NCBI GenBank assembly: GCA_937862565.1
Contig: CALMFT010000014.1
Span: 1 to 64,000, forward strand
Direction: 5' to 3'
Length of the DNA: 64,000 bases
Source: an uncultured bacterium
GTDB taxonomy: Bacteria; Patescibacteriota; Gracilibacteria; Absconditabacterales; Absconditicoccaceae
A model generated the notes under the pieces. That model searched no databases, was not told the DNA's origin, and worked only from the letters and a program-made list of their open reading frames with translations. Both the position numbers and the translations under genes were made by a program. This document shows positions 6,144-60,807 of this stretch, one piece after another (position 1 is the first letter of the stretch; each line of letters opens with the position of its first letter).

Positions 6144-7370
6144 CTATTTTTTCTTGGCTTTTTCAACTTCTACTTTACTCTTTCCTTTTCTATGTTTCTT
6201 AGCTTTTTTCTCTTCTTTGTGTTGAGGTAAAATAATCGGTTCTGTGGATACTGGAACTGCAAGTCTTATCGTATCCAATTTAGTTTTGATAGCTTTCAGC
6301 AACTGATCTACTACCACGGAAGCGTAAGAACCTGCTTCGAGATTGAACTTTAGCACGATATCTTCGTCTAGCCATCTTCGAGTAGGATTAGTCATTTCCA
6401 ATTCTAGCGTTCTTAAAGTTCAGAATATTTTTAACTCCTCATACAATTTCCATTTTTCTGTACTTATCTCATTTTTTCTCATAAAATTATACGTCCATTT
6501 ACCAAAGGAAGTGTCATGATGTGGAATGAGACTATTGAATCCAAACACAGGTAAAATAATCTGATAAGCAGACTTGGGGTTAAATTCGTGTGGAAATGCA
6601 AGTTTTGTGAAGGTAAAGAATTTACCTTTTTGGTGCCGATCGGGTTGGAAGTAAATTTCATCCTGAAAATACAAATACACCTTTTCATTAATGAGTATCA
6701 AATCTCCATCAATCGGTGCTTTCCCTTGTTGTATTCTTCGCTCCAGCATGATATTAAAAAGATGACTGGCATATGCTTGAAGTTTGAACAGACGATCAAA
6801 TCCTGTAATAGATTTATCATGTCCACCCAGTATACGTAGACCTTCATTCACATTACGACCGTTTACTCCAAAACGTTGTTCTCCAAAGTAATTTGGGAAG
6901 GCTGGTTTGGTGAATAAATCTTCAAGTGTCTTGTTTACGATTTCACGTTCTTCAGGAGAAAGTTTATGTTTATTGGATCTCAAGCGTATTACGAAACCAT
7001 TACGAAGATTATCTTTTGTAGTGAGTTTCTTGTCATACCGACCTGTAGCAAGTACTTTACAGATATTTCATAATCAGATAGAGAGTAATTTTTCAATTTT
7101 CTTTGTTCTCAAGGTCATAGAAACGATATCCAAATCAAAACTAAACCACTGGCGAGTAATCCCATGTTTATCTTTGAGTCCAGCAAATCCAATAGAATTC
7201 TTAGGCAGTTTATATGTCTTTAACAAAAAATCTACTATTTCCATAGTAGTTTTTTTTTCTTTCTCAATGTGAACATAAAGAAAAGCTCCCTCAGTTTTTA
7301 ATGCATAAGGCAACTTTTCATCGACTAGAAAGTCTTGTAACTTCTGTTTGAAATCAAATAAATATGCCAT
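6144..7370 (-). CDS. truD: tRNA pseudouridine(13) synthase TruD
   Basis: 408 residues. TruD converts U13 of tRNA-Glu to pseudouridine. The catalytic motif GFAGLKDKHGITRQ is at residues 61-74 with the nucleophilic Asp at 67, and the second TruD signature NYFGEQRFG is at 160-168. Two in-frame UGA codons (7074-7076 and 7068-7070) lie between the two motifs and are Gly. The C-terminus ends in a Lys-rich tail of about 25 residues that the usual family lacks. The gene follows typA on the same strand after a ~100-bp spacer that carries a copy of the 9-mer (7451) and several near-copies. Confidence 0.93.
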
Positions 7371-7474
7371 ATAAGCAGATTTAATAAGTTTTTAAATTGA
7401 TATATTTGTGATTATAAGCAAATTATAAGCAGATTATAAATCGCTACTAATCAGATTATATTTTATATTAAATA

Positions 7475-9274
7475 TTATTTTTTTCTAGCAGACGCTCTTG
7501 CGGAATCTGTAAGATATTTCTTTCTGAGTCTAATTGATTTTGGTGTAATTTCTACATACTCATCATTAGCGATATATCACAATGCATCTTCAAGAGTCAT
7601 ATGTCTGATTGGTTCCAATCTCATAGCTTCATCATTTCCTGCGTTACGTACATTCGTCATTTGTTTATTGATAGTAAGATTTACTACCATATCTCCACCT
7701 TTAAGATGCTCTCCTACGATCATTCCTTCATAAATTTCTTGAGCTGGATCTATGAAAATTGGTCCACGTTCTTGAAGTTTATAAATTCCGTATTTCATAG
7801 CTTTACCTGTTTGAGAAGCGATCATACTTCCTACTCTTCTTTTAGCAATTTCTCATGCCCATGGAGCAAAATGTGAGAAACTATGGAACATCAATCCTTC
7901 TCCTTTCGTGAGTAAGATAAAATCTCCTTTGAGCCCTAGAAGTCCTCTTGTAGGTATTTCAAATTCAATTGTTGTTTGACCATAATCTGTATTCATAGTT
8001 TGCATAAGTCCTTTACGATCTGATATAAGCTGAATAATACTTCCAGAAACTGACTCATCTACTGTAATAACTAAAATTTCAAATGGTTCAAGCTTGTGTC
8101 CATTCTCATCTCTTTTTGTAATTACTTCAGGAGCAGAAACTTGTAATTCATATCATTCTCTTCTCATTGTTTCAATCAATACTCAAAGGTGCAATTCACC
8201 TCTTCCAGAAACTACAAATTTTGTAGGATCAGAAAAATCAATCTTGAGCCCTACATTTACCTCTAGTTCTTTCGTAAGTCTTTCAAAAAGATTTCTACTC
8301 GTTACAAACTTACCTTCTTTCCCCATAAATGGACTGTCATTTACAACAAATTCCATAGTAAGCGTAGGTTCATCAATAGTAATCGGTGGCAAGGCTTCTG
8401 TATTTGGATTATCTGTAATAGTTTCTCCGACATAAATATTTGGGATTCCTGCGATAGTAACAATATCACCACATGTTCCAACCAAGGTTTCTACTCTACT
8501 CAATCCACTTGTTACGAAAATTTTACTTACTTTTCCAGTTCTGCGTACACCTTCATTATCAATAACAGTAACTTGCTGAGCAGCCTTAATAGTTCCTTGA
8601 GTGATACGTCAAATACCAAGTCTACCTAAGAAATCGTCATAACCTAAGTTGGCAACTTGCATTTGCAGTGGCTCATTATCAAGTTTTGGAGCTGGTTGCA
8701 CCAAATCAATGATAGTTTGAAACAATGGAGAAATATCTTTTTGTTCATCGCCTATATTTTTGATTGCAATTCCTTGTTTAGCAATTGCGTAAACTACTGT
8801 AAATTCAGCCTGTTCATCAGTTGCTCCCAAAGATATAAACAAATCAAAAAGTCTATCAATAACCCAATCAGGTCTTGATGTTGCTTTATCAATTTTGTTG
8901 ATGACTACGATTGGCTTGAGACCAAGTTCCAATGATTTTTTGAGTACGAACTTTGTTTGAGGCATAGGACCTTCATAAGCATCTACTACTAATAATACAC
9001 TATCTACCATTCTCAAAACTCTCTCCACCTCAGATCCAAAATCAGCATGCCCTGGAGTATCAATAATATTAATCGTATGATCTTGGTAAATAACAGAAGT
9101 ATTTTTACTATAAATAGTAATACCTCTTTCGCGTTCTTGATCATTACTATCCATAATCAAAGCAGCTCCTTCTTCCACTTTCATAGTACCAGATTGTTTA
9201 AGCAAGGCATCTACAAGCGTAGTTTTCCCATGATCTACATGGGCAATAATAGCAACATTTCTAATATCTAACAT
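7475..9274 (-). CDS. typA: Ribosome-associated GTPase TypA/BipA
   Basis: 599 residues, family length. TypA is a translational GTPase of the EF-G class that binds 70S ribosomes and helps ribosome assembly under stress. G-domain motifs are at the N-terminus: AHVDHGKTT (G1), DTPGHADFG (G3) and NKID (G4). The C-terminus carries the diagnostic [17 protein letters not shown]. Several UGA codons lie in the middle and late domains (for example 8609-8611 and 7577-7579) and are Gly; in the standard code the gene breaks into at least three pieces. The first Met lies directly before the G1 motif, as usual. Confidence 0.96.
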
Positions 9275-9392: not shown

Positions 9393-10031
9393 ATGGAAAT
9401 ACAACAACTAATCATTATACTTTTTACGATGAAAGGCTCTATCAAACATACAATAACAGTAGTTTGTGATACACAGTACGAACAAACTATCGAAGTAAAC
9501 AAAGAGGAGGAAGTAAAAGCTTCTTACTTTATTTTTTCTAATAATCAAGCTACGTCTTGCAAAGTCCAAGTCAATCTTATGTGAGAAAAATCCTCAGCAG
9601 ATATCAAACTATTTAGCATTATTCATAATGCGTACGAAGTTATAGTAGATGGCACAATTTATATTGATCAATCTGCCAATCATGCATCAGGTCATCTACA
9701 AGAAGAGATTTTATTGATTTGATGAAAAGGTTTTACTACAACTAAGCCAATTCTAGACGTAAGAAATAACGATGTTTCAGCAAGTCATGGAGCTAAAATT
9801 CATAATTTCAACCCGAACAATCTTTTTTATCTTATGTCTAGGTGACTAAGTGAAATGCAATCGAAAGAAGTTGTCTTAAAGGGGTTTATAGATAGTTTAT
9901 TTGATTTAGAAAATTCAGAAATAAAAATAATCTGAGCATCTGAAGATCTCATAAGCAAACCAAAAGAAGAATTGATTACTTACATCATAGAAAAAATTTC
10001 AAAAAATATACTAATCCAAACTGCACATTAG
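9393..10031 (+). CDS. sufD: Short SufB/SufD-type Fe-S cluster assembly scaffold protein
   Basis: 212 residues, about half of a usual SufD. SufD works with SufB and SufC in assembling Fe-S clusters. The central part is beta-rich, and the C-terminal third carries the SufB/D core signature: DVRNNDVSASHGAKIHNF, then LFYLMSRGL, with the conserved His of the SHGA motif. Four UGA codons are Gly. The part that would contain the N-terminal helical domain of SufD is absent, and the residues before the core are short. No sufB or sufC lies in the window. The ATG at 9393 is the longest start; an alternative ATG lies at 9429. Confidence 0.75.
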
Positions 10032-10208
10032 TTTATAATAGTTCAATCGATCAAATATATAAATTATGTCAATAAATAAATAGTTTATTTTATTGTAAAA
10101 CTATTGTATTTGTACTTATAGTCTTTACTATTTAAGTAATTATAAATAGAAAAATAAATTATAAAGATCAGATTATTTAGATTTATTTTGGATATCATCA
10201 AATCGCTT

Positions 10209-11833: not shown

Positions 11834-13786
11834 ATGAAAAAATTAGTTAAACAAATTGCATTTAGTTTATTGGGAGCAAGTGGATTAGCAATAGGAGTAA
11901 GTTCACTTTTGGGTTCAAACAACAGTCTTCCTGATGTTTTATTTAGAACTCAAAGCAATTATGATATTAATAATTATTGTGAAAATGGAGAACGTGCAGA
12001 AAAATTTGAACTTTTTTCATTAGAAAATCTCAACAACAACCTAACAAAATACATAGATACTCAAGCAGGAAATTGAAATGTTCCGAAATGAATTAAGAAA
12101 ATAACTATGGATAAGTGATACGGATTAGTATCATTTAAAATAGATAGCCAAGCGGAAAGAATGCGAAACAATCTTGATGCTAATATTGCTTTTGTAAGTG
12201 ATGTAGATACTGAAAAAACTCATCCATTAAATAATAATATGCGAGAAACATATGTGATAGCAACCACAATTGATGAAAGCGAGTCATGTGAAGATATCAA
12301 TACTATAAATCAATTTGATACACTGTATCAAAGCACTAGAGACAATAAATTAGCACAACAACGAGGAGGCGAATTTACAGCCTCAAATATGCTTCCATTA
12401 AATACTTTAGTTAAAAATTCAAAACTTTGTTTATATTTCAAGCTTAGTTCTCAACCTTATGGCGTTCCTTATGGATCACCAATAGATAATGATATATTCA
12501 GAACTTTAACTTCATTTGATTATAGCTACTGTCCTAGTAAGCCTGAAACAGACCTTACTATAACAAGTGCAGGATATTGCGAAGAGTGAAACACAAAGAT
12601 TGAATTAAGTATAAATAATATTGGTAATGCTACTGTGGAATGATACCAAGATATTAATATTAATTGAAATATCATAAGTGCTATTGTTGATACAGCTCGT
12701 GGTATCACTATCAATGAATATTCTGCTAACGGCGTAGTATGTCCAAAAGTAGGTTGATTGGGTTGATTAATATTAACAAAAGACCAAAATTGAGCATTTA
12801 AGCTAGGTGGAAAGGGGTTCAATATAGGTTCAAATAAATCATGTAAATATCTTTTGACGATCATACCAAAAACTAATAATATAAGTCGAAATGGAACTAT
12901 AAGCATGACTGATGAAATAAATACTTCCAATAACAGTTTCCAAGGTATAATAGATTTAGACACAGAAGCGAATAAGAGTTGTAATATAACTACAGAAGAT
13001 AGCACTCTTACCTGCGAAGAATTAATATCTTCAATCGGTATCGTAAATTCCAATGGCTCATTGCTTATTCAGCCTATTTTGAAAGATGGATGAGAAAAAA
13101 TAACAAATAACACTCAGCTACCAAAAGGTTATAGTATGAGCTGTAATTATAGTGTAGATGGAGTAAACAAAGGAATAGTAAAAGACTTTAGTATAATTGG
13201 AGCACTTCCTGGTGTGTATAAAGTCAATTGTTCGCTCGAATTTATGTGAAAGAAAGTTGATGACTGCAAGGAAGCTTCATATACGATCACCGTACCTGGT
13301 CAGATATGCTGAGATGGAATCATTCAAGCTACTGAACAATGTGATAACGGTACAGCAAATGATGATTTAGATGGACGATGCACTACTGCTTGTACATTTC
13401 AATGTACGATAGAAACAAAGATAGAAAAACCTCAAGTAACAATTAAACTCATACCAATTCCATTACCAATATGATTATTCGGTAATTGTAACGTAGATAA
13501 TAACCCTGTAGATCTAATATGAGGTATTATAGTCTGAGTGCGAACTCCTTGAGTAAACCATACAATCGAATGCTTTGTGAAAGGTAATTTGCCAGGCGGA
13601 TTTCCTATCAATACTAGTTGTAAAGGATCATTTAATATTTCAAACTTTGGATGATGAACAGATAATAGATTAAATGACACAACAACAAAAACTACAATGA
13701 AAGATATTATAACTAAGCCAATAATTAAAGAAAAAGATTCAAAGCCTACATTAAAGTATCCATCACCAACTAAAAAAATTAAATAA
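11834..13786 (+). CDS. Secreted Cys-rich protein with a DUF4215-type disulfide repeat
   Basis: 650 residues. An N-terminal signal segment (residues 6-27) leads into an extracellular protein with about 20 cysteines. Near residue 490 the sequence CGDGIIQATEQCDNG followed by an Asp-rich turn and paired Cys matches the DUF4215 / Myxococcus Cys-rich repeat. The two halves around it look like repeated beta-sandwich units with Asn/Thr-rich surfaces. The C-terminal 45 residues are Lys/Thr/Pro-rich and could be a wall-spanning or attachment tail. At least 15 UGA codons are Gly. It would act at the cell surface, perhaps in host or matrix contact; that role is inferred from composition only. Confidence 0.75.
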
Positions 13787-32206: not shown

Positions 32207-32986
32207 TTATTTTATGAGGGGCTTGATATGTTCTTCGTATTGTTTAACAATAGATCGTGCAGGAAGAAGAGTGGAACGTCCATTCTTAGTACTTCCTTTA
32301 ACTATTCCCTCTAATCAATATTGTGAAATAATAGGTCCGCCACTCATTCCAGGTTTCGAAATCATATCTACGTCGTAATATACCTGTCTATTTGGATCTA
32401 ATTTGGAAGGACTAATATATTGTCTACTATACTGACCAGCCCCCTCATTTTGTGTATAGAGTAGATTTTTAGAAAGCTCATACAAATAGCCAGTATTAAA
32501 AGAATATTCATGATGGAGACCTTCATGAAATTTTCATAGAAAACCTCATAACAAGCGAGGAGAAGTAAAATTCTCACTTATTTTGACTTTAGTAGGGATA
32601 AATCCAAAAGGTTTTTTACAAAGCACAAATGCAAGATCACTTTCTCCTAGAGGAGATTTCAGTATTTTATCAATTTCAAACTCATAAAATCCTATAAGCT
32701 TTTTCTCTAAGTAGATATCTTTTGTCACAGAAACTGTATTGTGATCACTTACATGGTTCGCAGTAGCAATAATTATCTTATCTTTAAAAGAATCTAATAT
32801 AAAGCCTGATCCCACTAAAAAACTACCTTCTTTGTGACCCAAGGAACGAAACTTAACCAGAGGTATAGTTTTATAAGATTCATGGGTATTTTCTACAAAT
32901 TCATCAAATTCAGATTGCAATACCGCAGGATCTGTAATGAGTTTTTTATATCCTTCTGGATAATAAAGTTTGTTTTCTGGGTTCAT
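32207..32986 (-). CDS. Trypsin-like serine protease (copy 1 of a tandem pair)
   Basis: 259 residues without a signal peptide. The catalytic triad is visible: His in TANHVSD (near 75), Asp in SDLAFV (near 115) and Ser in GMSGGPIIS (near 215). It resembles the S1/HtrA protease core without PDZ domain. The next gene upstream encodes a clear paralogue with the same opening (MNPENK) and ending (SIVKQYE.HIK.LI). The start is the second of two adjacent ATG codons, by agreement with the paralogue. UGA codons are Gly. The two genes are 10 bp apart and probably one transcript. The substrate is unknown. Confidence 0.82.
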
Positions 32987-32996
32987 CATAAAAATG

Positions 32997-33767
32997 TTAT
33001 GTAATTAATTTTTTTATATGTTGTTCGTATTGCTTTACTATGGAAGCAATAGGAAGAATAGTAGATCCTACTCAACCCGATCATATTATTATTCATTCGA
33101 TTCAATGCTCTGAAATAACTGGTCCTCAGCTCATTCCACCTTTAGAAATCATATCTGCTTTCAAATAAATTTGTTTATGCAAATCTAACTCAAAAGGATT
33201 TACATTTTTAGAATAAAAATGATTTGAAGATGGATTTTCCATATATCTTAAGTTTTTATTGTGTTCACCAAGAAATCAAGTGTGAAAAGAATAATCGTTT
33301 TGTTTATTTTTAAAAAATGCTCATATCAATCCAGGATTCAAGACGTTACTAACCTGAGCTCTTTTATTTACGAATCGAAAAGGTTTTTTGCAAATAATAT
33401 AAGCTAGATCTTTATCAGACTTCTTAGCTCTCAGTATTTTATCAATCTCAAAATCATGAGATCCCACAAATTTATTAGCCACATATATATCTTTGATGAC
33501 TTTATTGTAGTGTATACTAGAATCATTGAGAACATGATTACAAGTTGCTATTATTACTTTATCTTTGAAAGTATCTAAAATAAAACCTAATCATCACTTA
33601 ACATAATCTGTATTAGATACACGAGATGAGGTTTGTATAACTGACGTTGACTTATAAGAATCGCGATTATTATCTACAAATTTATGAAATTCAGATTTCA
33701 ATAGAATAGGATCTTTATCTAATTTTTTATATTCTGAAGGATAATAAAATTTATTTTCTGGGTTCAT
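32997..33767 (-). CDS. Trypsin-like serine protease (copy 2 of a tandem pair)
   Basis: 256 residues, paralogous over its length to the gene downstream. Triad: His in TCNHVLN, Asp in KDLAYI, Ser in GMSGGPVIS. The first Gly after the catalytic Ser is encoded by UGA, so in the standard code this active site would be cut off right at the nucleophile. It has at least ten UGA codons against two or three in copy 1, so the copies have diverged in codon use. No signal peptide is visible. It was not obvious without code 25, because no long uninterrupted frame exists. Confidence 0.82.
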
Positions 33768-36201: not shown

Positions 36202-36777
36202 TTATTCGTCTATCAAATTTAAAATACCGCCAGAAACTCATTTTCTACTCATAACTCCTATAATTCTACCTTCCTCAAAGAAAGGAGAACCGCTTTGGCC
36301 AAAATCTGGCATATAGGATATAAAAATACCTGTAACTTCGGTTGCAGGTATTTTTTGTTGTGAGCCGGAAACAAATGTCACCAGTCCATCAATATCTGTA
36401 GCACAATTCGCAGTAGTAAAGCTTGCTTCGGCTACGATTTGAAATACTCCCCTATCATTTCCTAGGTTCTGCTGACTATGGGTAACAAGACTCAAATCTT
36501 TTTTCTGATTATTATAATTCTTAATCTGCACATTACACTGACCATCACAATCTTCGAGTACATGTTGAGCTGTAATCCAAATATCCCCCGTTCGATAAGA
36601 GGCAACTCCAATCTGAGTTCCATTGGTATTCACGAGAGGGTAAACACAGAGTATTGACTCAGAAATTGGTAAAAAAGTGCTAGCAAAAAATTTAGAAAAT
36701 ATAAAAAAAAGAGCAATCAAAGCCGTAAAAAAAGCGGTTGTTTTAGTTATATCAGATAATTTCAGATTATTTGACAT
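36202..36777 (-). CDS. Membrane-anchored trypsin-like protease-like protein
   Basis: 191 residues. One N-terminal membrane helix (residues 15-36) leads to a small S1-protease-like domain: His in TAQHVLEDC (near 73) and Ser in FGQSGSPFFEEG (near 165). The middle acidic residue is probably the Asp of NDRGVFQI. The domain is shorter than copies 1 and 2 at 32-33.8 kb and not clearly related to them beyond the fold. One UGA (36238-36240) extends the C-terminus by 12 residues, ending with a Gly-rich turn. It lies convergent to the Asp-repeat gene. Confidence 0.7.
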
Positions 36778-51146: not shown

Positions 51147-52580
51147 ATGTCTCATCAAGATTATCTCGATTATATGTCACCTTTTTTCAAGTCTGTATGA
51201 GGATTTGAAGAGTTTTCAGCAAGCATAAATACTCCCCTTCTCAAGTCTTTCTCTTGTGTACAATCTCGCGGGTCGGTACAGACCACGATAGTAAGACTCC
51301 AATCTCAATGATTTAGCGTACAGAAATCAGATTATAATCCCCTCAATTATAAGGTAAATAAAGAAGAGGACGAAAAAACTATAGCTTTAGGTAAAACTCC
51401 TGAGCATATTTTGGGTCAGTTGTATATCCAAGAAACCGCTGCAAGTCTTCCTGCATCCATTATTCCCCTGCCCATGGAATGAAATATCCTCGACATGTGT
51501 GCTGCACCAGGAGGAAAGACGACACAATTGGCGGATAGATGTAAAATAATCTGATCTAAAGCGGTGATTCGAGCAAATGAACCCGATAGTAAAAGAATAA
51601 TCCCTCTTGCGAGCAACCTCACGAGAACGGGTATGCAAAATGTAGTGACTATACAGCATGATGGAAGTAATTTCTGAAACCATGTGCCTGAATTTTTTGA
51701 TAGTATCTTATTGGATGCGCCTTGTAGTGGGGAAGGTACTGGGTTTAAATCTGATTTTGGGACGAAGTTTTGGGATATCAGAAAGGTCGAATCTATCGCT
51801 AAAGTGCAACAACAATTGTTAATCTCTGCTTTCAAAGCTTGTAAGGTTGGTGGAAGTATTTTGTATTCTACCTGTACCAGTAATCCCCTCGAAAATGAAG
51901 TAAACGTGCAGTTATTACTCGATAAATATGGAGATAAATTGGAGCTTCAAGAAATAAAAATAGACTGATTATCTGCTGGTCTAGAAGGTTTTGGAGAAGT
52001 AAGTAAATATAGTAAAAGACTACGACCTCATCTTCATCACACTTGAGGATTTTTCATGTGTTTGATGAAAAAAACTTCTGCAATTGAGCAAACCTTCAAC
52101 CAATCGGTCTACAAACAAAAATGAAAATGAGTGATGAAACCAAAATTCATCGCCTGTGATCACAAAGCAATCACACAACGACTCTCGGATAATTTCCAAA
52201 TATCAGTTCCAGAATATATCCAATTTTCTAAGTCTCAAAACCAAATTTACGCCCACAATACCCTCGATTTTGCTCAACTCAATCAATTCAAAATAGATAA
52301 ACCATGAATATTGGTTATCAAAGGAGATAAACCTTCAAGCTGGAGAGTTACTCACGGAGCGGGTTTGATCTTCGATTTCGCACCTTCCTATCAGATTCAC
52401 CTCAACGAAAAACAGGTCCACAATCACATCAACCAACAAGATATCGACCTAGAACCTGAACAAATTCCTTCATCATTTTCTCCAAGCAATTATGTTCAAC
52501 TCACTTTTGAGGGAAACAAAGCTGGAGTAGGGAAAATAATCTGAACGAGTATCAAGAATAAACTGAGTGGAGTTTTTTAG
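51147..52580 (+). CDS. RsmF/NSUN-type rRNA cytosine C5-methyltransferase
   Basis: 477 residues. SAM-binding core with DMCAAPGGKTTQLA (motif I), the catalytic ILLDAPCSGEGTG (motif IV, Cys) and LYSTCTSNPLENE (motif VI, second Cys). The N-terminal NusB-like domain of RsmB is absent and the C-terminal ~190 residues follow the RsmF layout, so m5C in 16S rRNA is likely. Many UGA codons are Gly, two within 9-mer copies (51546, 52536). The C-terminus overlaps, on the opposite strand, the code-25 reading of the Avd gene. Confidence 0.87.
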
Positions 52581-52946
52581 TGTACTACCCCCCCCCTCAT
52601 ATCACGATTGAGACTTTCTTTCCCAAGCTAACAACTGTTTTGATATAGTTTCTATCGATTCACTCAAAACTACAAATCTTTCTACTGCTATGATATGAAG
52701 ATCCTTTGATAATCTCAATAATACTCTAATTCCTTCCAATGTTGCTCTTGTTTCTATAAGAGATTCTTTTTTATGTAATAAAGTATTAGTTTTATAAAGT
52801 GAAGATATCAACATCAAACAATCCTTTTTGAGTTGTTCACCCAAAGTATATTTAAATTCTTTGGGGAATTTTTTAATCACTAAAAATAAAGAAAGAGTGA
52901 GATCATAACTTGCCTTATAAACTGGAAGATGTTGTGCAAGAGTCAT
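52449..52946 (-). CDS. avd: Avd-like accessory variability protein of the DGR, with a UGA read-through extension
   Basis: Residues 1-114 form a four-helix bundle typical of bAvd (LAQHLPVYKASYDLTL, KEFKYTLGEQLKKD, RATLEGIRVLLRLSKDL, ending LLAWERKSQS). Avd is needed with the RT for mutagenic retrohoming. Its ATG overlaps the RT stop (TAATG), implying translational coupling. The natural family end is a UGA at 52602-52604; read as Gly in code 25, the frame continues 51 residues through a G9 tract (52588-52596) to TAG at 52449-52451, opposite the end of the RsmF-like gene. So either the protein has an unusual tail, or this UGA is a relic stop. The short version is 52602-52946. Confidence 0.78.
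52588..52596. repeat. C9 homopolymer (G9 on the Avd strand)
   Basis: Nine C in a row, exceptional in this AT-rich window, just after the RsmF stop and inside the extended Avd frame. Slippage here would change the extended tail of Avd. It could also mark an assembly seam. Confidence 0.7.
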
Positions 52947-54109
52947 TATTTATTATTAAGTTTTGTAAAAGGAGAAGAAATAGGATAGCTCTCTGGAAGA
53001 AGAGATGTTATTTTTTTTCTTTGTTTAAAATTTCTATAATGCTGCATCATCCCTAAATAAGAATGGATTGTAGAATGAGCCTGAGATGTCTCGTATTTTG
53101 TATAAGATCAAAAATTATTTCTTATGCTACGAAAAGATCTTTGTGCGTTGCCAATAATCCTACGATTGATATAAATTCTATAAGGTTTAAGGTAGGATCC
53201 AAGAAATTTAACTCCTTTAGTATAATGCTGAAGGTATATTTTTTTAGGATGAAGGGTAAGTCCCAGCTCTTGTGCTAAGTAATTCTTAATCAAAGGAATA
53301 ATAGAAGTAAGAAAATTTTTATCCTGATGTACTATCACAAAATCATCTACATATCTTCCGTAGTATGCACATCAAAGAACTTGTTTGACTCGTAGATCAA
53401 AAGGATGAAGATAAATATTAGCGAATAATTGACTGGTAAGATTACCAATAGGAATACCACATCAGGGGGAAGAAGTAAATAAAGATTTATCAGAAGGAAT
53501 ATGCTTATATAATTTTCTAGAGCCAATAAACTGATAAAATTGCGTAGGATCATGAAGAGTAACTTTTTTGATAAGATCCCATAATCGCATAAAGTACTCC
53601 TCTGCATCAATTCCTCCTCAGCTTATCAAAGATTTTTTGGATGCTAAGGTTTGCCGTATAAGGTAAAGTAACACTTCTTTATCTATATTCATAAAGAATC
53701 ATTTGATATCAAGTTTGAGGATTCGGCTATCACGAGAATAGTTAGCGCTAGAGGATCTTACAAAATGATCAAGTCTTTTTACTCCATAATGAGTTCATTT
53801 CCCAATTCTACAGCTATAACTATCATGAATGAATCACGTATCACAAATATCAGAAATTTTATTAATAATCAGATGATGTACTACTCTGTCACGAAAATCG
53901 GGAGCAAAAACCTCTCTAGGAACAGTATCACAAATCAAAAAACAAATATTTTTACTAATAGTATACGTTCCGTCTATAAGTTCCTGACATAAGGTAATCA
54001 AGTTACTTTCATAATGTAATTCAAATTCCAGTTGACTCAAAGAGTTTCTCTTATTACGACGAGCATCATAGTAAGCCACAAAAAGATCAGTAAGTAGTCA
54101 TGCGTGCAT
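52946..54109 (-). CDS. DGR reverse transcriptase
   Basis: 387 residues. Visible: the N-terminal ARRNKRNSLSQLEFE region, VPREVFAPDFRDRVVHH (RT2a-type), KLDIKGFFMNID (motif 3), SSPGCGIPIGNLTSQLFANI near residue 216 and YVDDFVIVH near 253 (catalytic Asp pair). The IGNLTSQ form (where other RTs have QG..xSP) marks the diversity-generating clade. Seven UGA codons, including the Gly of LDIKG, are spread along the gene, so it is adapted to code 25, not freshly imported. It is a component of the cassette VR-TR-RT-Avd. An out-of-frame frame (53347-53610) inside it is not a gene. Confidence 0.95.
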
Positions 54110-54134: not shown

Positions 54135-54155
54135 AACCAGTCATATTGACTGGTT
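54135..54155. repeat. Perfect 9-bp hairpin between TR and RT
   Basis: AACCAGTCA-TAT-TGACTGGTT. It lies between the TR and the RT start and could form in the TR-containing RNA, where structured spacer RNA is needed for cDNA priming in studied DGRs. Confidence 0.6.
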
Positions 54156-54160
54156 ATTCT

Positions 54161-54335
54161 TTGGAGTGCTAAACGAGCAAGCGCAAGGGTCGAGCGTACT
54201 CACGATTGTAGTCATCTAATTTACCTTTTGATTCATCCCATTTGCACGCCCACGCGTTGTCAGAGTCAGACTCAGAACGTGACCACAGATAGCCATACGA
54301 GCCACAGTTCTCTCGCTCACCACCGTTACGGTAAC
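54161..54335 (-). repeat. DGR template repeat (TR)
   Basis: A 175-bp repeat of the VR at 54638-54812. It lies upstream of the RT gene, on the same strand, and would be the RNA template. Its sense sequence has AAC/AAT-type codons at the diversified sites (N, D, E, K and Y codons). Compared with the VR it differs at 14 positions, all T on the plus strand, i.e. adenines on the sense strand. A further C/G difference at 54168 lies just after the shared stop codon and marks the IMH*/IMH boundary. It can be read as the end of a 60-residue frame, but it is a template, not a gene. Confidence 0.95.
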
Positions 54336-54520
54336 ATACACTAAAAATCATACTTAACCTTTGTCAGTCAGTCATATTTCATTCTTACTGATCTTTTACT
54401 ACTCACGAGAGCTATCCGATAGCCATCGTCAGTGTATGATTGAACTCCAATTACACACTTTTGTAATCCTTAGATTTACAAAATTCTGGTATAGTCATAT
54501 AGTAATTAACTAGTAAAAAA

Positions 54521-54554
54521 ATTCAATAAAAATTTTTATTCAATAAAAATTTTT
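54521..54554. repeat. Two tandem 17-bp repeats between TR and VR
   Basis: ATTCAATAAAAATTTTT occurs twice head to tail (54521-54537, 54538-54554) in the 300-bp spacer separating TR from VR. Apart from these and a short GCTAT-ccg-ATAGC hairpin near 54411, the spacer shows no gene. Confidence 0.8.
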
Positions 54555-54619
54555 CGCACACCCGAGGGGCTTACTCTAGCCTTATCCATGCGAGCCCAAA
54601 ATTGTCATAAGTGACGAAT

Positions 54620-54634
54620 CTTCGCTTTGCGAAG
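54620..54634. repeat. Hairpin just past the VR (target-site cruciform candidate)
   Basis: CTTCGC-TTT-GCGAAG, a perfect 6-bp stem with 3-nt loop, 3 bp beyond the VR repeat end and 11 bp beyond the target gene's stop codon. Studied DGRs need a similar hairpin/cruciform next to the IMH for efficient retrohoming. Confidence 0.7.
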
Positions 54635-54637
54635 GTT

Positions 54638-54812
54638 TTGGAGTCCTAAACGAGCAAGCGCAAGGGTCGAGCGCACCCACGAAAGTAGTCATCTAATCTA
54701 CCTTTCGATGCAACCCATTTGCACGCCCACGCGCTGTCAGAGCCAGACTCAGAACGCGACCACAGATAGCCATACGAGCCACAGTACTCTCGCCCACCAC
54801 CGTAACGGTAAC
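54638..54812 (-). repeat. DGR variable repeat (VR)
   Basis: A 175-bp copy of the TR forming the last 55 codons of the AAA+ gene plus its stop. The 14 differences from TR change 11 amino acids (for example Asn to Tyr, Ser or Phe; Asp to Gly or Val; Glu to Gly or Ala; Tyr to Cys) and are silent at two Ser codons. The fixed frame (CGSYGYLWSRSES, AWACKW, ARPLRLLV) matches the C-type-lectin fold used by DGR variable proteins. Confidence 0.96.
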
Positions 54813-57648
54813 CTGACATATCAGTACCAAGAAGAATGCTCATAAGTTTTGCTGATCCTGTCTCTCGACCCGTAGAAGTTGGAGAACTTGGTGGAGTTCC
54901 AGTTGGTCCTCCGGGTAAAGCTGTAAGAGTTTTTCGCATATCTTGATAGCTAGGAACTTTAGCTTGTTTTTCTTTTACTATTTTATCTACCATTGCGTAA
55001 TTAAAGTAATCTTCATCAGCATAAGCTCCTTCTCCTTTGAATACATGAGCTTGGGTTCAATCTGCTGGATTATCTTTATCATCTACAGTATAAGTGAGTC
55101 CAAAATCACTGGCTTTAGTATTTTCATGTGCTCGTGGTATTCCTCCAATAGTAATAGATTCCTTAGTAAACTGTACATTATTGATCATTGCTATATATGC
55201 TGGAGTTTCCATCTTGTTATCTTTGAGGAATTGGAAGGCTTGGGATTTACGTTGTTGCTCAAGCTCGGAAAAATTAGCATTAGATTTTGCTACATTATTA
55301 GCCTCAATATGCTCCTCATATTCATATTGTTTAAAAATATCCTTTGCTTTTTGCTTTTGCTCCTCCTTGATTTTCTGATTTTTATCTTGTTCACTAGTAT
55401 CTTCGAGTAATTTATTAAGTTGTTCAAAGAATCACCATGCAGGATTATTATCATACTCTTGCAGATAGTGAGCATTATCATTTTTTATAGCAGTATCAGT
55501 CGATGATCGATCTCTATCCAAATTTAATTGATCCTGACATACAGCAATAAGTTTTTTTATATCTTCTTCAGAAAATTGAGACTGTTTATCAAGTACATCA
55601 AGAAGAGTTAAGATACTCACATCTCCTCCATATTCATCAATCAGAAGTCAGATTATTTTTTTTATCTCTTTTTCTTTCTTAGTCATATGAATCGTATCAC
55701 TCAAGGGAAGTTTACTAATACTAGGATAAAGAGCTATTAAAAGTTGGGTAATATCTGTTACTTGTAAGGCTCCTTTATTTCATTTTACCACTTTATCTGA
55801 GGTAGAAACGAGGTTGAGTTTAGCAAGGGTGATATTATTTTTATCTTTCTTAGCCAACTCTTTTGATCTAGTCGTAAGATACTCTTCGTGCTGCGAATCA
55901 ATCAAACCTTTAGCAGAGAAAACTCTGAGTAAAATACATTGATCTTTGATATCAGCTTGATTACTAATAAAATCACAAATTTTGTGGGCGATAATAGTAT
56001 CATAACTGCTATCTTGTATAATTTGTAATCTTTCAGTTTCATCCCAATTTCGTAGTTCCAGAAATCTTTTAGTATCAAGGAGAGCCTGATTGAGGGTTCA
56101 TTTTGTTTCCATAAAATCTCCAGCTGAATTGAGTTTTGAAGAAAAATAAGTTTGTTCTTTTCTCGCAAATCTCAAATCTTCAACTTCGGGAATTACTTTA
56201 ACCAGATTATCAAGTAAGCCATTTTCCTTGAAGGTAGAAGCTCCTACATAAGGAATATATCATGGTTTATACATTAGTTTTGCAGAAACAAGAAGCTTGA
56301 GTTCATCTCCCCCAATATAATCTACAGGAATTGGTGAAAACTCACGAGCTATATAATCTGCAGGAATAAGACCATATTGTTCTCATCGATTGGTAGTACC
56401 AATAAAATTCACAGACTTAATATCTATCTGATCACCATTACTAAGCGTTAATTTTTCTCCTGGTTTACGAGATCGGAAGAATTTGAGATAGGCAAGTGCA
56501 GATTCAGGATATCTTAAGAATTCATCAATAATAATAGGTAATCCCATTTTACAAGCTAATTCTAACTTGCTCATAGCGAAGTCAAACATGGGTTTATCTT
56601 GTGCTTGATCACGAACATGTGAAAGTTGATCAGGTGATTGTTTGGTTAAAGGAACAATTTTACCTAAAAATTCATTTTTTGTAGCATCAGGATGCCCAGA
56701 TAAAGCTGGAACATCTTGTGAAAGTAATTCAAATTCTTCTTTGGAAATTTGCTCACGATTCATAAGCATATTGAGAAGTTTTCTTACCGTATACTTTGCA
56801 AGTTCTGTTTTCCCTGTACCCGCTGGACCTGTGAGCACGCTATTTTTTCTGTCTAAAATATTGTGAAGAATACTGTCTACGATTTTTTCTCTACTTGCTA
56901 AACCTTCTACTACTAATCATCCATTAGTAGCCTGTTGTTTATGAATATTTCATAATTGTCTATACAATACTGCAAGTTTTGTATCCTTATAGCTTTCTGT
57001 TTGCTCTGCTAATGATTGTTGAAGAATGGAAATAATATTAGTGAGATACTCTTTTGCTGACTTGAGTGGATAAGACTGTTTTGATATTCTACTCAATTCA
57101 TCGTGATAGGTAAATCGATCTATATCCAGAATAAGTTGTTGTAGAGAAGCAATAGAAGATTGGAAAGAAGAACTACGATTATGTAAAGTAATGAGATTTT
57201 TGATAGATTTTTGCAATTGACTCACAACAGAATCAAATATAGACTTGGCATGGGGAGAATTGAATTCAGCTTTTTTTAAATTCTGTATTGCTCCTTCACC
57301 ATTCTCTTGTATTTCAGCTTCTATGAGGGATCGATCAGTATATTCTTTTTCTGGTATGGGAGTAAGATTTCTCAATTTCTTTTCTCCCTTCTCAAGAAGT
57401 TGAAGATGTGGTTTTCTCTTAGTAATTTCACGAGAAAGTTCAGGAGAAATAGGAAAATCAGTATTTGTTTGACCCAAATAGATATCTGTGAAAGAATGTT
57501 GTGTGAGAGTAGCAAGATCTGCTGAATTAATAATCTCTTGAAGAGATGATGTATGTAAAGTAGATCAAAGTTCATCCACTTGTTGCTTGTGTTTACGTAT
57601 GGACTTACGTTGGTCCAAAGAGAGTGATGAAGGAGAGTGATTAGTCAT
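54646..57648 (-). CDS. MoxR-type AAA+ ATPase with a DGR-diversified C-type-lectin C-terminus
   Basis: 1000 residues, joined across at least eight UGA codons. Order: helical N-terminal region (1-260); AAA+ module with Walker A GPAGTGKTE (273-281), Walker B LPIIIDEF (370-377) and sensor FIGTTNRG (415-422); a helical middle with charged repeats; and a C-terminal FGE/C-type-lectin domain whose last 55 residues are the VR. MoxR ATPases remodel partner proteins and pair with vWA proteins; the gene lies 26 bp after such a partner. The diversified surface would be the recognition part. UGA codons at 56950, 56383 and 55432 are needed to join the domains. Confidence 0.92.
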
Positions 57649-57674
57649 TAGAGAAGAGAATAAGGTAAATATAT

Positions 57675-59930
57675 TTAAATTTGTTTCAGTCAATTGATAA
57701 GTACTTCTTGCATTTTAGAACCAAGATCTGAAGGTTTTTCACAAATAATTCCAGATCCCTGACCAGAGTCAACTTTGCCGAAAAGATCTTTCATAGGAGA
57801 CCCATCGCTTGTGATACCAATTCCAGAAGTAATAACTCCCAATGCACGTAATTGAGCAATCATATTTACAGCAAGCTGTTTATCAGAGGTTTGACCATCG
57901 GACATCACGAGTATTATATATTTTTCTTTTCATTGGGCTACTTTTTTCTTATAGTCTTCAGTCAATAATTCAAAATCTTCATACACTTTTTGAAGTGCTC
58001 CACCGATATTAGTACCCCCATCATCAATAGATAGCCCTTCCAAAGAATGTATAACATCTTCACTTGTCCAGTCATTGGATGCTGATTTCCATTCCTGAAT
58101 CTCAGAACTTCCATCAAATATTAATCCTTGAGACCAAATATCAGGTAATTTATTTTTATCTATCTGATTATCTCGTCATCCTGTTGCATCCAGAAGCTTA
58201 TCACTAAGAAGCTTGAGCGCATGCATAATGAGGAGGCTATTAATCTTTTGGTCATGATTTTTAATACCTTGCATACTTCCACTTCCATCACAGACTAGTA
58301 CAAAATGAAAACCTGTTACGAGTTGTTGTTCAAGTATTTTACGGTAATCTTTTTGTCGAGCAAGCGTTTCTGTGATATCTTTACCCAAAAGATTATCTAT
58401 ATAAATCTCTACTGTTCCACCATCATGAAGTTCTCCATTTCCTCTATCACTATCTACTGGTCATTTATTACGTATTCTTTGATTAGTTCTTTTTGATTTT
58501 ATATTCTCAAAAATATCAGTAAGAATTACATCAATAACACCACTATAATCTGATTCTATTTTCGGTAAGATATCTTCGTTGTACTCTTCAAGTAATTTGA
58601 CTAACTTATCTCGTTCACGAGGATCGGAATTTTCTAGATCTGCATATTTTGTTTTTCTGAGTTGAGATTCAGCTTTTTTAGTAGAGTTAGATTTTGCCTC
58701 TTCTTCATATTTTTTCTCAATAAGTTCATTTATTTCTTCTTGAAGTTTTTGGATATCATCTGATTTCAATCCTTCTTCTTCCAAGACATGAGGCATATCA
58801 TTTATCTTTTCATACCACTTTGCAAAAGGATCATCTTCTAATTCACTATCATTTTGATCATTTCAAGCAGATTGACTAGGGTCTCCTTCTTGTGTTCCTT
58901 GTGGCTTTCCTTCACCAGGTTTTCACTGATTTTCCCCTTCCTGTTCTCATTGCTCTCATTCCTCTCCTCATTGTCATTGTCACTGCTCTCATGGTAACTT
59001 ATCCTGTTGAGTAGAATCTTTTGAATCCTTGTTAGTAGTATTATTCTGAATATCTTCTTCGTAGAGTTCTTTAAATTTATGATATAAAAATAGGATATAA
59101 GGAAGTCTCACAGGTAGTGAGATAGAAGTGTCAGTAGCGTGGCCTATAATATCGCTTCTAGAACGATTGTATAAATCAATTAATGACTGTACTTTAGGAT
59201 CAAGAATTACTGGACTTCAAGGAGTCATTTTTTGTCTTAAAATACCCTGCCCAAACTGCAAATGTAAAGGCATCAATCCTCCCAACTCTTCTTGATTAGT
59301 CCAATCGTCTCCAGGAAAACACCAATCACGATAATTATCCTCAAGAGTTTGACTAAGAGCAAATATTCACTGTTGGTAATCTACACTGCGTTTATTCACA
59401 TACACATCTCTCATTCGATTTTCGAAGGTATGGTATAGTTTTTCCTCTGCAATGAGATTTTTTCTTTTATCCAAAAGAGTATTTCCAGGAAGAGCATTGA
59501 ATCATCTTGCAACAAAACTTGGAAGTGTATGTTTGAAATGTTGTGAATAATCTAAAGAGTTGGAAATTTTATTTCATCGATATTCTAGCTCAGCATTTTC
59601 ATACAGATGTCACAATTCATGTAATGATATTTGAATAAGCTGATTGAGGGTAGGATACTTTTGAGTTTGAGAATGAATAATTTTTGCCAAACTCGGTAAA
59701 TTTATGAAAATAGACTTTTGTGATTCTTTATGAGCTCCCACATCATCTTTTACTCGAGCTATAGCATCATTTTGTGAGTCATTCAAAAACTGTATCTGGA
59801 TAGCTTTACCCAGACCATGTGCATACCCCTGTGTTCGAGAATTTATTATTTTTTTCTCTGAATCATTGAGCATATATTCATAACTATTTTGTTCGTCCTT
59901 TTGCATACTCTTATGATACTCAACAGCCAC
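57675..59930 (-). CDS. vWA-domain partner protein of the MoxR AAA+ ATPase
   Basis: 751 residues. N-terminal helical domain (1-260), a Gln/Gly/Glu-rich linker (about 290-350, many UGA), an acidic helical region, and a C-terminal vWA domain with a complete MIDAS: DGSGS (548-552), Thr in GGTNIGG (640) and Asp in MSDGQ (677). The arrangement resembles CobT/ViaA-type partners of MoxR ATPases, where the vWA domain binds the hexamer or the substrate. It is the first gene of the cassette. The start is a GTG at 59928; an ATG nine codons later (59904-59906) is an alternative. Confidence 0.88.
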
Positions 59931-60138: not shown

Positions 60139-60807
60139 ATGAAATTACTTACTCTTACTCAACAAACTTATGAACAGGAATTTAAAACACCAGAGAAGAA
60201 TGACAATAAATCAGAAAAATTGGAGGAGAAAGATTATGGTTTAAATATAAAGGAGAATATTCAAGATAATTTTGAGAAGAAAGAAAGTATCGAAACCCCA
60301 CTAGAAAAATTAGGCTTTGAGGTTTTCAAAAGATTTTATAATGATTTTGGAGTTATTAAAAAAGAAGATGGAAAGATAGCAGATCCACTTATTAGTGATA
60401 AGTATATTGACTGAGTAGGATGTGCAAGACAATATCCAGGTGAGGTTATTGTAAAGTTTAGATTATTTTATAATAGTAATGAGACAAAAATTCACGAACG
60501 AGGAACTTTCAAAACGGACCAAGAAGAATATGATTGGCACAATCAAAACAGCAATGCACCAAAAGGAATTATCGCAACCACTAAAACTGATAATAAAGGA
60601 TTCAGAAGAGATACCATATACGATATGGCCACAAAAACTCTCACAACTAACGAATACCAAAATAATGACTTTACTAAGAAAATAAGCTCCAAAACTATTG
60701 AGGATGAAGCTTCTATTACAGGATTCTTAGACAAGGTACAATGAAGCGTTTCAGGATTCGTAAGGGATGATGATAGATGAGGAGAAAGTCAAAAAAAGAA
60801 TCAATAA
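60139..60807 (+). CDS. Unknown protein divergent from the DGR cassette, 222 residues
   Basis: Not recognised. The first 60 residues are Lys/Glu-rich and disordered-looking; the rest has short strands (GEVIVKFRLFYNSNETKIHE) and a Lys-rich end. Five or six UGA codons are Gly. It starts 209 bp from the vWA gene and is transcribed away from it. It converges on rlmE with a 13-bp gap. Whether it belongs to the cassette is unknown. Confidence 0.6.

Follow-up and report, generated by a model that had tools for sequence, protein, structure and literature searches.

The window, that is, the whole stretch of 64,000 nucleotides analysed here, very probably carries a complete cellular diversity-generating retroelement (DGR) on the chromosome of a bacterium of the Absconditabacteria, which uses genetic code 25. 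On the minus strand, the parts of the element follow one another in the order partner gene (59930–57675), target gene VP1 with the variable repeat VR1 at its 3′ end, template repeat (TR), reverse transcriptase (RT) gene and Avd gene. Translation with table 11 interrupts the frames of the window, whereas table 25, in which TGA is read as glycine, leaves them open; in-frame TGA codons number 8 in the RT and 10 in VP1. The surroundings of the locus consist of housekeeping genes, with an rRNA methyltransferase gene adjacent and genes for RNA polymerase, ATP synthase and others elsewhere in the window. The locus provides a complete, well-resolved DGR from a CPR lineage with a recoded genetic code, and its relatives are numerous enough to reveal the conserved sequence features. 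Elsewhere in the window, two trypsin-like protease genes with a GMSGGP motif lie in tandem at 32207–33767, and a third similar frame lies at 36202–36777.

The TR (54161–54335, minus strand) has 175 nt, including 42 A, and VR1 (54638–54812, minus strand) forms the 3′ end of VP1. A repeat search of the region from 50 to 60 kb found a single direct-repeat family, made up of 54160–54335 and 54637–54812, with 176 nt, 91% identity and no gap, and the spacing between TR and VR1 is approximately 300 nt. The match extends one base (54160/54637) beyond the limits given in an earlier note on this DNA, whose hand alignment of two collinear, gapless repeats was reproduced by this search and by a base-by-base comparison run by program. 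On the sense strand, the comparison gave 15 differences in 175 nt, 14 of them at A of the TR (8 to G, 5 to T and 1 to C) and one from C to G. With the latter, the marker base, set aside, VR1 was changed at 14 of the 42 A of the TR versus 0 of the 132 other bases, in agreement with the earlier claim that the 14 differences are all A on the sense strand. The probability that all 14 fall on A by chance was 2.1e-9 (binomial) or 3.1e-10 (hypergeometric), and Fisher's test gave 3.4e-10. The codon-by-codon comparison returned the very count of coding effects made before: twelve of the A changes altered 11 residues (TR to VR1: N to Y, E to G, N to Y, D to G, N to S, D to V, E to A, K to R, N to F through two changes, E to G, and Y to C), and the other two were silent, both TCA to TCG. 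Twenty-three of the 54 TR codons are able to alter a residue through A.

The DGR RT (52946–54109, minus strand, 387 aa) begins approximately 50 nt from the TR and contains the motifs IGNLTSQ and YVDD. It matched RVT_1 (1e-14) and phrog_1423 (1e-89), and the best solved match to the RT family profile was PDB 8ub7 (E = 1e-51), which we take to be the bRT of BPP-1, the record itself being titled 'Reverse transcriptase'. In the Avd gene (52449–52946, minus strand), the homologous part covers approximately 115 aa (52602–52946) and matched Pfam bAvd PF22296 (2.2e-16) and phrog_3206 ('Avd protein of DGR', 1e-19); the NCBIfam Avd match (1.6e-14) lay under the model's own cut-off. Under code 25 this frame is 165 aa long and exceeds its relatives by approximately 50 aa (52449–52602), running across a TGA toward a convergent RsmB/F gene. 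In PADLOC, the RT matched RT models and VP1 matched one candidate model, PDC-S68 (6.5e-9), with no other matches.

RT matches were found in 12 of the 49 genomes of the order, the host included, two of the 12 being fragmentary. A tree of 86 RTs grouped the sequences of the host (G000) and of G027, G018, G035 and G012, representing four genera, in one clade with support of 98/87, so that the element has evidently been established in the family for a long time. Four further TR/VR pairs of the family exhibited changes at 11 of 35 A (L020, in G027), 31 of 69 A (L022, in G035), 19 of 66 A (L023, in G012) and 29 of 52 A (L158, in G062). Together these pairs contain 90 changed A and two non-A differences, with at most one of the latter each, and the five pairs including that of the window contain 104 changed A and three non-A differences. 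The proposal that A-only change marks the locus as a DGR has thus gained the RT, Avd, the IMH, a stem-loop and homologous TR/VR pairs in four other genomes. At L021 (G018:C9), the variable 3′ end of the target, upstream of the RT, continues directly into a TR-type IMH* (GCACTGC) and the TR hairpin, as if VR–TR recombination had occurred with loss of the intervening stretch; a second RT in this genome, on contig C3, is broken. Stop-prone codons (AAA, AAG and AGA) are commoner in the TRs of the window, L020, L022, L023 and L158 (6–16% of codons) than in 52 standard-code TRs (mean 3%). The idea that reading TGA as glycine shields VRs from nonsense was set aside as a small effect, simulated nonsense for this TR being 18% versus 17%.

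The sole non-A difference between TR and VR1 sits in the first codon past the stop, where the TR has C at 54168 in the motif GCACTCC and VR1 has G at 54645 in the motif GGACTCC, both on the minus strand. L020 and L022 likewise have a single non-A difference each, and it is this same one, C in the TR and G in the VR, so that the three non-A differences of the family, from G000, G027 and G035 in three genera, concern one base, with GCACTSC in the TR and GGACTSC in the VR. The marker base of a third copy, VR2, is likewise G; GCACT is also present in the TRs of G012, G018 and G069, the G012 VR reads GTAACTCC at the marker motif, and G062 has A in the TR and G in the VR at this position. The earlier guess that 54168 represents the IMH*/IMH boundary is strengthened by these comparisons, because the other two non-A differences are an identical C to G change in an identical motif. 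On these sequences, 54168/54645 looks like a one-base IMH*/IMH marker, with a presumed function and from a small sample. A one-base difference recurring in three genera would make a vague boundary a testable template-protection switch.

Behind VR1, a predicted stem-loop (54620–54636, minus strand; CTTCGC-AAA-GCGAAG) lies in a region of 48 nt, 46 of which are identical behind VR2. Behind the TR and 5′ of rt, a hairpin of 9 bp with a T-rich tail (54135–54155, minus strand; z = −3.9) is a candidate for either a minimal spacer RNA or a terminator. A strong hairpin just behind the TR was present in all eight family loci inspected, with a loop of 13 nt in L021; it was also present in half of 56 other DGRs versus 5% of shuffles, and the TR 3′ hairpin was thus rejected as a speciality of the family. 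Upstream of the TR, a conserved motif (54391–54404, minus strand) reads GAGTAGTAAAAGAT in the window, and its family form, GNARTMAAAGAT, lies approximately 58–72 nt upstream of the TR in six loci (the window, L020, L022, L023, L158 and L159). This motif is a candidate 5′ element of the TR RNA. A search of Rfam returned nothing relevant.

The target VP1 (54646–57693, minus strand) is a protein of 1015 aa with a predicted MoxR-like AAA+ core at approximately aa 270–460 and a variable C-terminal domain. Its Walker A (GPAGTGKTE) and Walker B (LPIIIDEF, containing IIIDE) motifs are both kept in three homologues. Matches to AAA families in Pfam were weak, and the structure model was confident in the AAA core alone and poor elsewhere. 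Foldseek with the model of the core returned AAA+ proteins such as ClpB, NorQ and McrB, and those aligned over most of their solved chain were NorQ, alone and in complex with the VWA domain of NorD (probability 1.0, TM by target approximately 0.45). Motifs and model together suggest that the VP1 core adopts a MoxR-like AAA+ fold. The variable C-terminus looks like a lectin domain of the DGR type (GYLWSRSES..AW), and its profile comparison with canonical DGR targets of the Lcl_C/Fib_succ_major type gave E = 3.6e-4 with a probability of 37% over 42 columns. The AlphaFold model of the variable domain was poor (pLDDT 59) and gave no significant Foldseek match. The domain might have a C-type-lectin fold, for which the support is weak.

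The partner gene (57675–59930, minus strand) overlaps the start of VP1 and encodes 751 aa with an N-terminal HELGH metallopeptidase motif and a C-terminal VWA domain (6e-7) containing a DGSGS metal-site motif. This VWA protein is not a member of the VMAP family. Pairs of a MoxR gene and a peptidase-VWA gene also occur at L160 (G069), where order and overlap are alike, at L058 (G029) and at L029 (G025), the last of which flanks an RT fragment. At L058 (G029:C66), the MoxR-like gene has its 3′ end (8326–8563) repeated 1.6 kb downstream at 9911–10149, with 93% identity over 239 nt and an identical core. The copies enclose two frames resembling an AbiEi/AbiEii pair, and the G029 genome yielded no RT. 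Neither a transmembrane segment nor an evident hydrophobic signal was seen in VP1, VP2 (the target that ends in VR2) or the partner. The operon has no third component, the next gene upstream (60139–60807) being on the opposite strand and matching no family. By analogy, VP1 may act in the cytosol as an AAA+ sensor that binds changing ligands through its variable C-terminal domain and cooperates with the metallopeptidase-VWA protein, a proposal that we consider evenly balanced. The combination of such a partner with a cytosolic AAA+ ATPase that carries a variable domain bears on the purpose of DGRs in CPR bacteria.

A search of the host genome with the TR returned three copies in all, the third of which, VR2 (G000:C32:111061–111235, 82% identity), forms the 3′ end of the gene for VP2, a protein of 312 aa (7070–8008 of locus L004). 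The common part of VP1 and VP2 is only a cassette of approximately 690 bp, within which similarity extends from near 55277 to near 54588, with 35% identity beyond. Identity in the cassette is 89% in the upstream flank, 80% in the VR and 96% in the 48 nt behind the VR that contain the stem-loop. Compared with the TR, VR2 has changes at the marker base, at 15 of the 42 A and at 15 of the 132 remaining sites, so that A sites are enriched among its changes (Fisher 6e-4), and its non-A divergence of 11% equals the 11% divergence of its upstream flank. Enrichment at A together with non-A divergence equal to that of the flank suggests that VR2 was once diversified, and not by the present TR since the copies separated; judged from these substitutions, VR2 is not a recent product of the TR of the window. 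No second TR for VR2 was found in the host assembly, which is 93% complete and holds the three copies only. An IMH motif on contig C33, considered as a second TR, was a chance match with no repeat around it. In G035, G012 and G027, no dispersed VRs of their own TRs were found, save one match of 31 bp in G035. A repeat at 13612–13961 of L004, picked up in the scan for A bias, consists of A-rich copies with three non-A differences and has no RT, and it was not accepted as a DGR. Also in L004 (8104–10945), topoisomerase I appears to be divided between two frames, which enclose a small frame resembling an Ogt-type methyltransferase.

Other origins of the repeats fit these data poorly. A plain tandem or gene-end duplication followed by neutral divergence would be in keeping with two repeats that are 91% identical and lie approximately 300 nt apart, yet every coding difference falls on one base of one copy (p = 3e-10), RT and Avd adjoin the repeats, and the same A bias recurs in four other genomes; the A-only bias combined with the RT already refutes this explanation, and its probability is practically negligible. 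The best-known DGR is phage-borne, and a prophage element diversifying a phage receptor-binding protein might on that ground be proposed. This origin is disfavoured as very unlikely, as housekeeping genes flank the locus, neither the target VP1 nor its 3′ end had a match in IMG/VR, and the PHROG matches comprised only the RT, Avd and a weak helicase match.

The present state of the element and the role of its target leave more room for alternatives. That the DGR worked until recently and is now silent, with VR1 frozen, has a modest chance of being correct. VR2 has diverged at non-A sites (15 of 132, with 11% in the upstream flank) like ordinary DNA, meaning that the TR of the window has ceased to rewrite at least one target, and in G018 a VR is fused to a TR tail (L021) and the second RT is broken. 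Against silence in the window itself, however, code 25 leaves the frames of RT and Avd uninterrupted, and VR1 contains no non-A coding change, suggesting that it was written by the TR of the window not long ago. As for the target, a life on host cells is assumed for CPR bacteria, and the roles proposed for their DGRs include attachment (PMC10221324), so that VP1 might be a surface adhesin or host-attachment protein diversified to follow host cells. This role is unlikely, given that VP1 is an AAA+ ATPase in which both Walker motifs are intact and that neither it nor VP2 nor the partner has a transmembrane segment or an evident hydrophobic signal.

For a cellular DGR with an intracellular target, we propose the following course of events. 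By extrapolation from BPP-1, TR RNA would be reverse transcribed by an RT–Avd complex with misincorporation opposite A, and the 3′ IMH and the stem-loop would direct the cDNA to the 3′ end of VP1, where it would take the place of the VR. The TR may be spared because its 3′ end has C instead of G at the marker base. VP1 may then sense a changing ligand and act through the ATPase and the peptidase-VWA partner, by analogy with MoxR–VWA systems. Taken as one reading, tentative and somewhat doubtful as a whole, DGRs of the Absconditabacteria would guard the template by a single conserved base (C in the TR, G in the VR) and use a minimal TR RNA with a conserved 5′ motif and one 3′ hairpin; here, the DGR would feed a two-component intracellular sensor, consisting of a hypervariable domain fused to a MoxR ATPase and a metallopeptidase-VWA partner, and would have seeded a second target by moving a C-terminal cassette of domain, IMH and stem-loop.

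A literature search found no paper on DGRs of Absconditabacteria, their IMH marker, the peptidase-VWA partner or a detached second VR. DGRs and AAA–lectin targets in CPR bacteria are already known, according to a passage of PMC10907252 that cites a 2017 paper, and the present element resembles the DGRs of candidate phyla radiation bacteria (Paul et al., 2017; Roux et al., 2021, clade 2; PMC8144416) in its CPR host and cellular location. The marker base, the short TR RNA, the partner and the detached VR are the features worth following. With the DGR of Bordetella phage BPP-1 (mtd-avd-TR-brt), the element shares A-specific TR/VR differences, RT, Avd and IMH/IMH*. An inverted repeat or stem-loop behind the IMH and the mechanism of retrohoming have been described for BPP-1 (PMC12875486); the stem-loop at 54620–54636 is like the one behind the BPP-1 IMH, and the hairpin at 54135–54155 occupies the position of the BPP-1 spacer RNA. 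Unlike BPP-1, the present element is cellular, uses code 25 and has the order target-TR-rt-avd, its TR–rt spacer is only approximately 50 nt long with one hairpin, its IMH and IMH* differ by one base, and its target is an AAA+ protein rather than a tail fibre. DGR-diversified MoxR–VWA conflict systems have been described from multicellular bacteria, and there it is mostly the VWA protein that carries the variable domain (PMC7159879). The present locus is like the MoxR–VWA ternary conflict systems with a DGR (Kaur et al., 2020; PNAS 2024 e2316469121) in that a MoxR AAA+ protein and a VWA protein are co-encoded and a C-terminal domain is DGR-diversified. However, whereas the variable domain of those systems mostly belongs to the VWA protein or to a distinct target, in the present locus the MoxR ATPase itself carries it as a fusion, the VWA protein has a metallopeptidase motif, and no VMAP, iSTAND or other third component was found in the operon.
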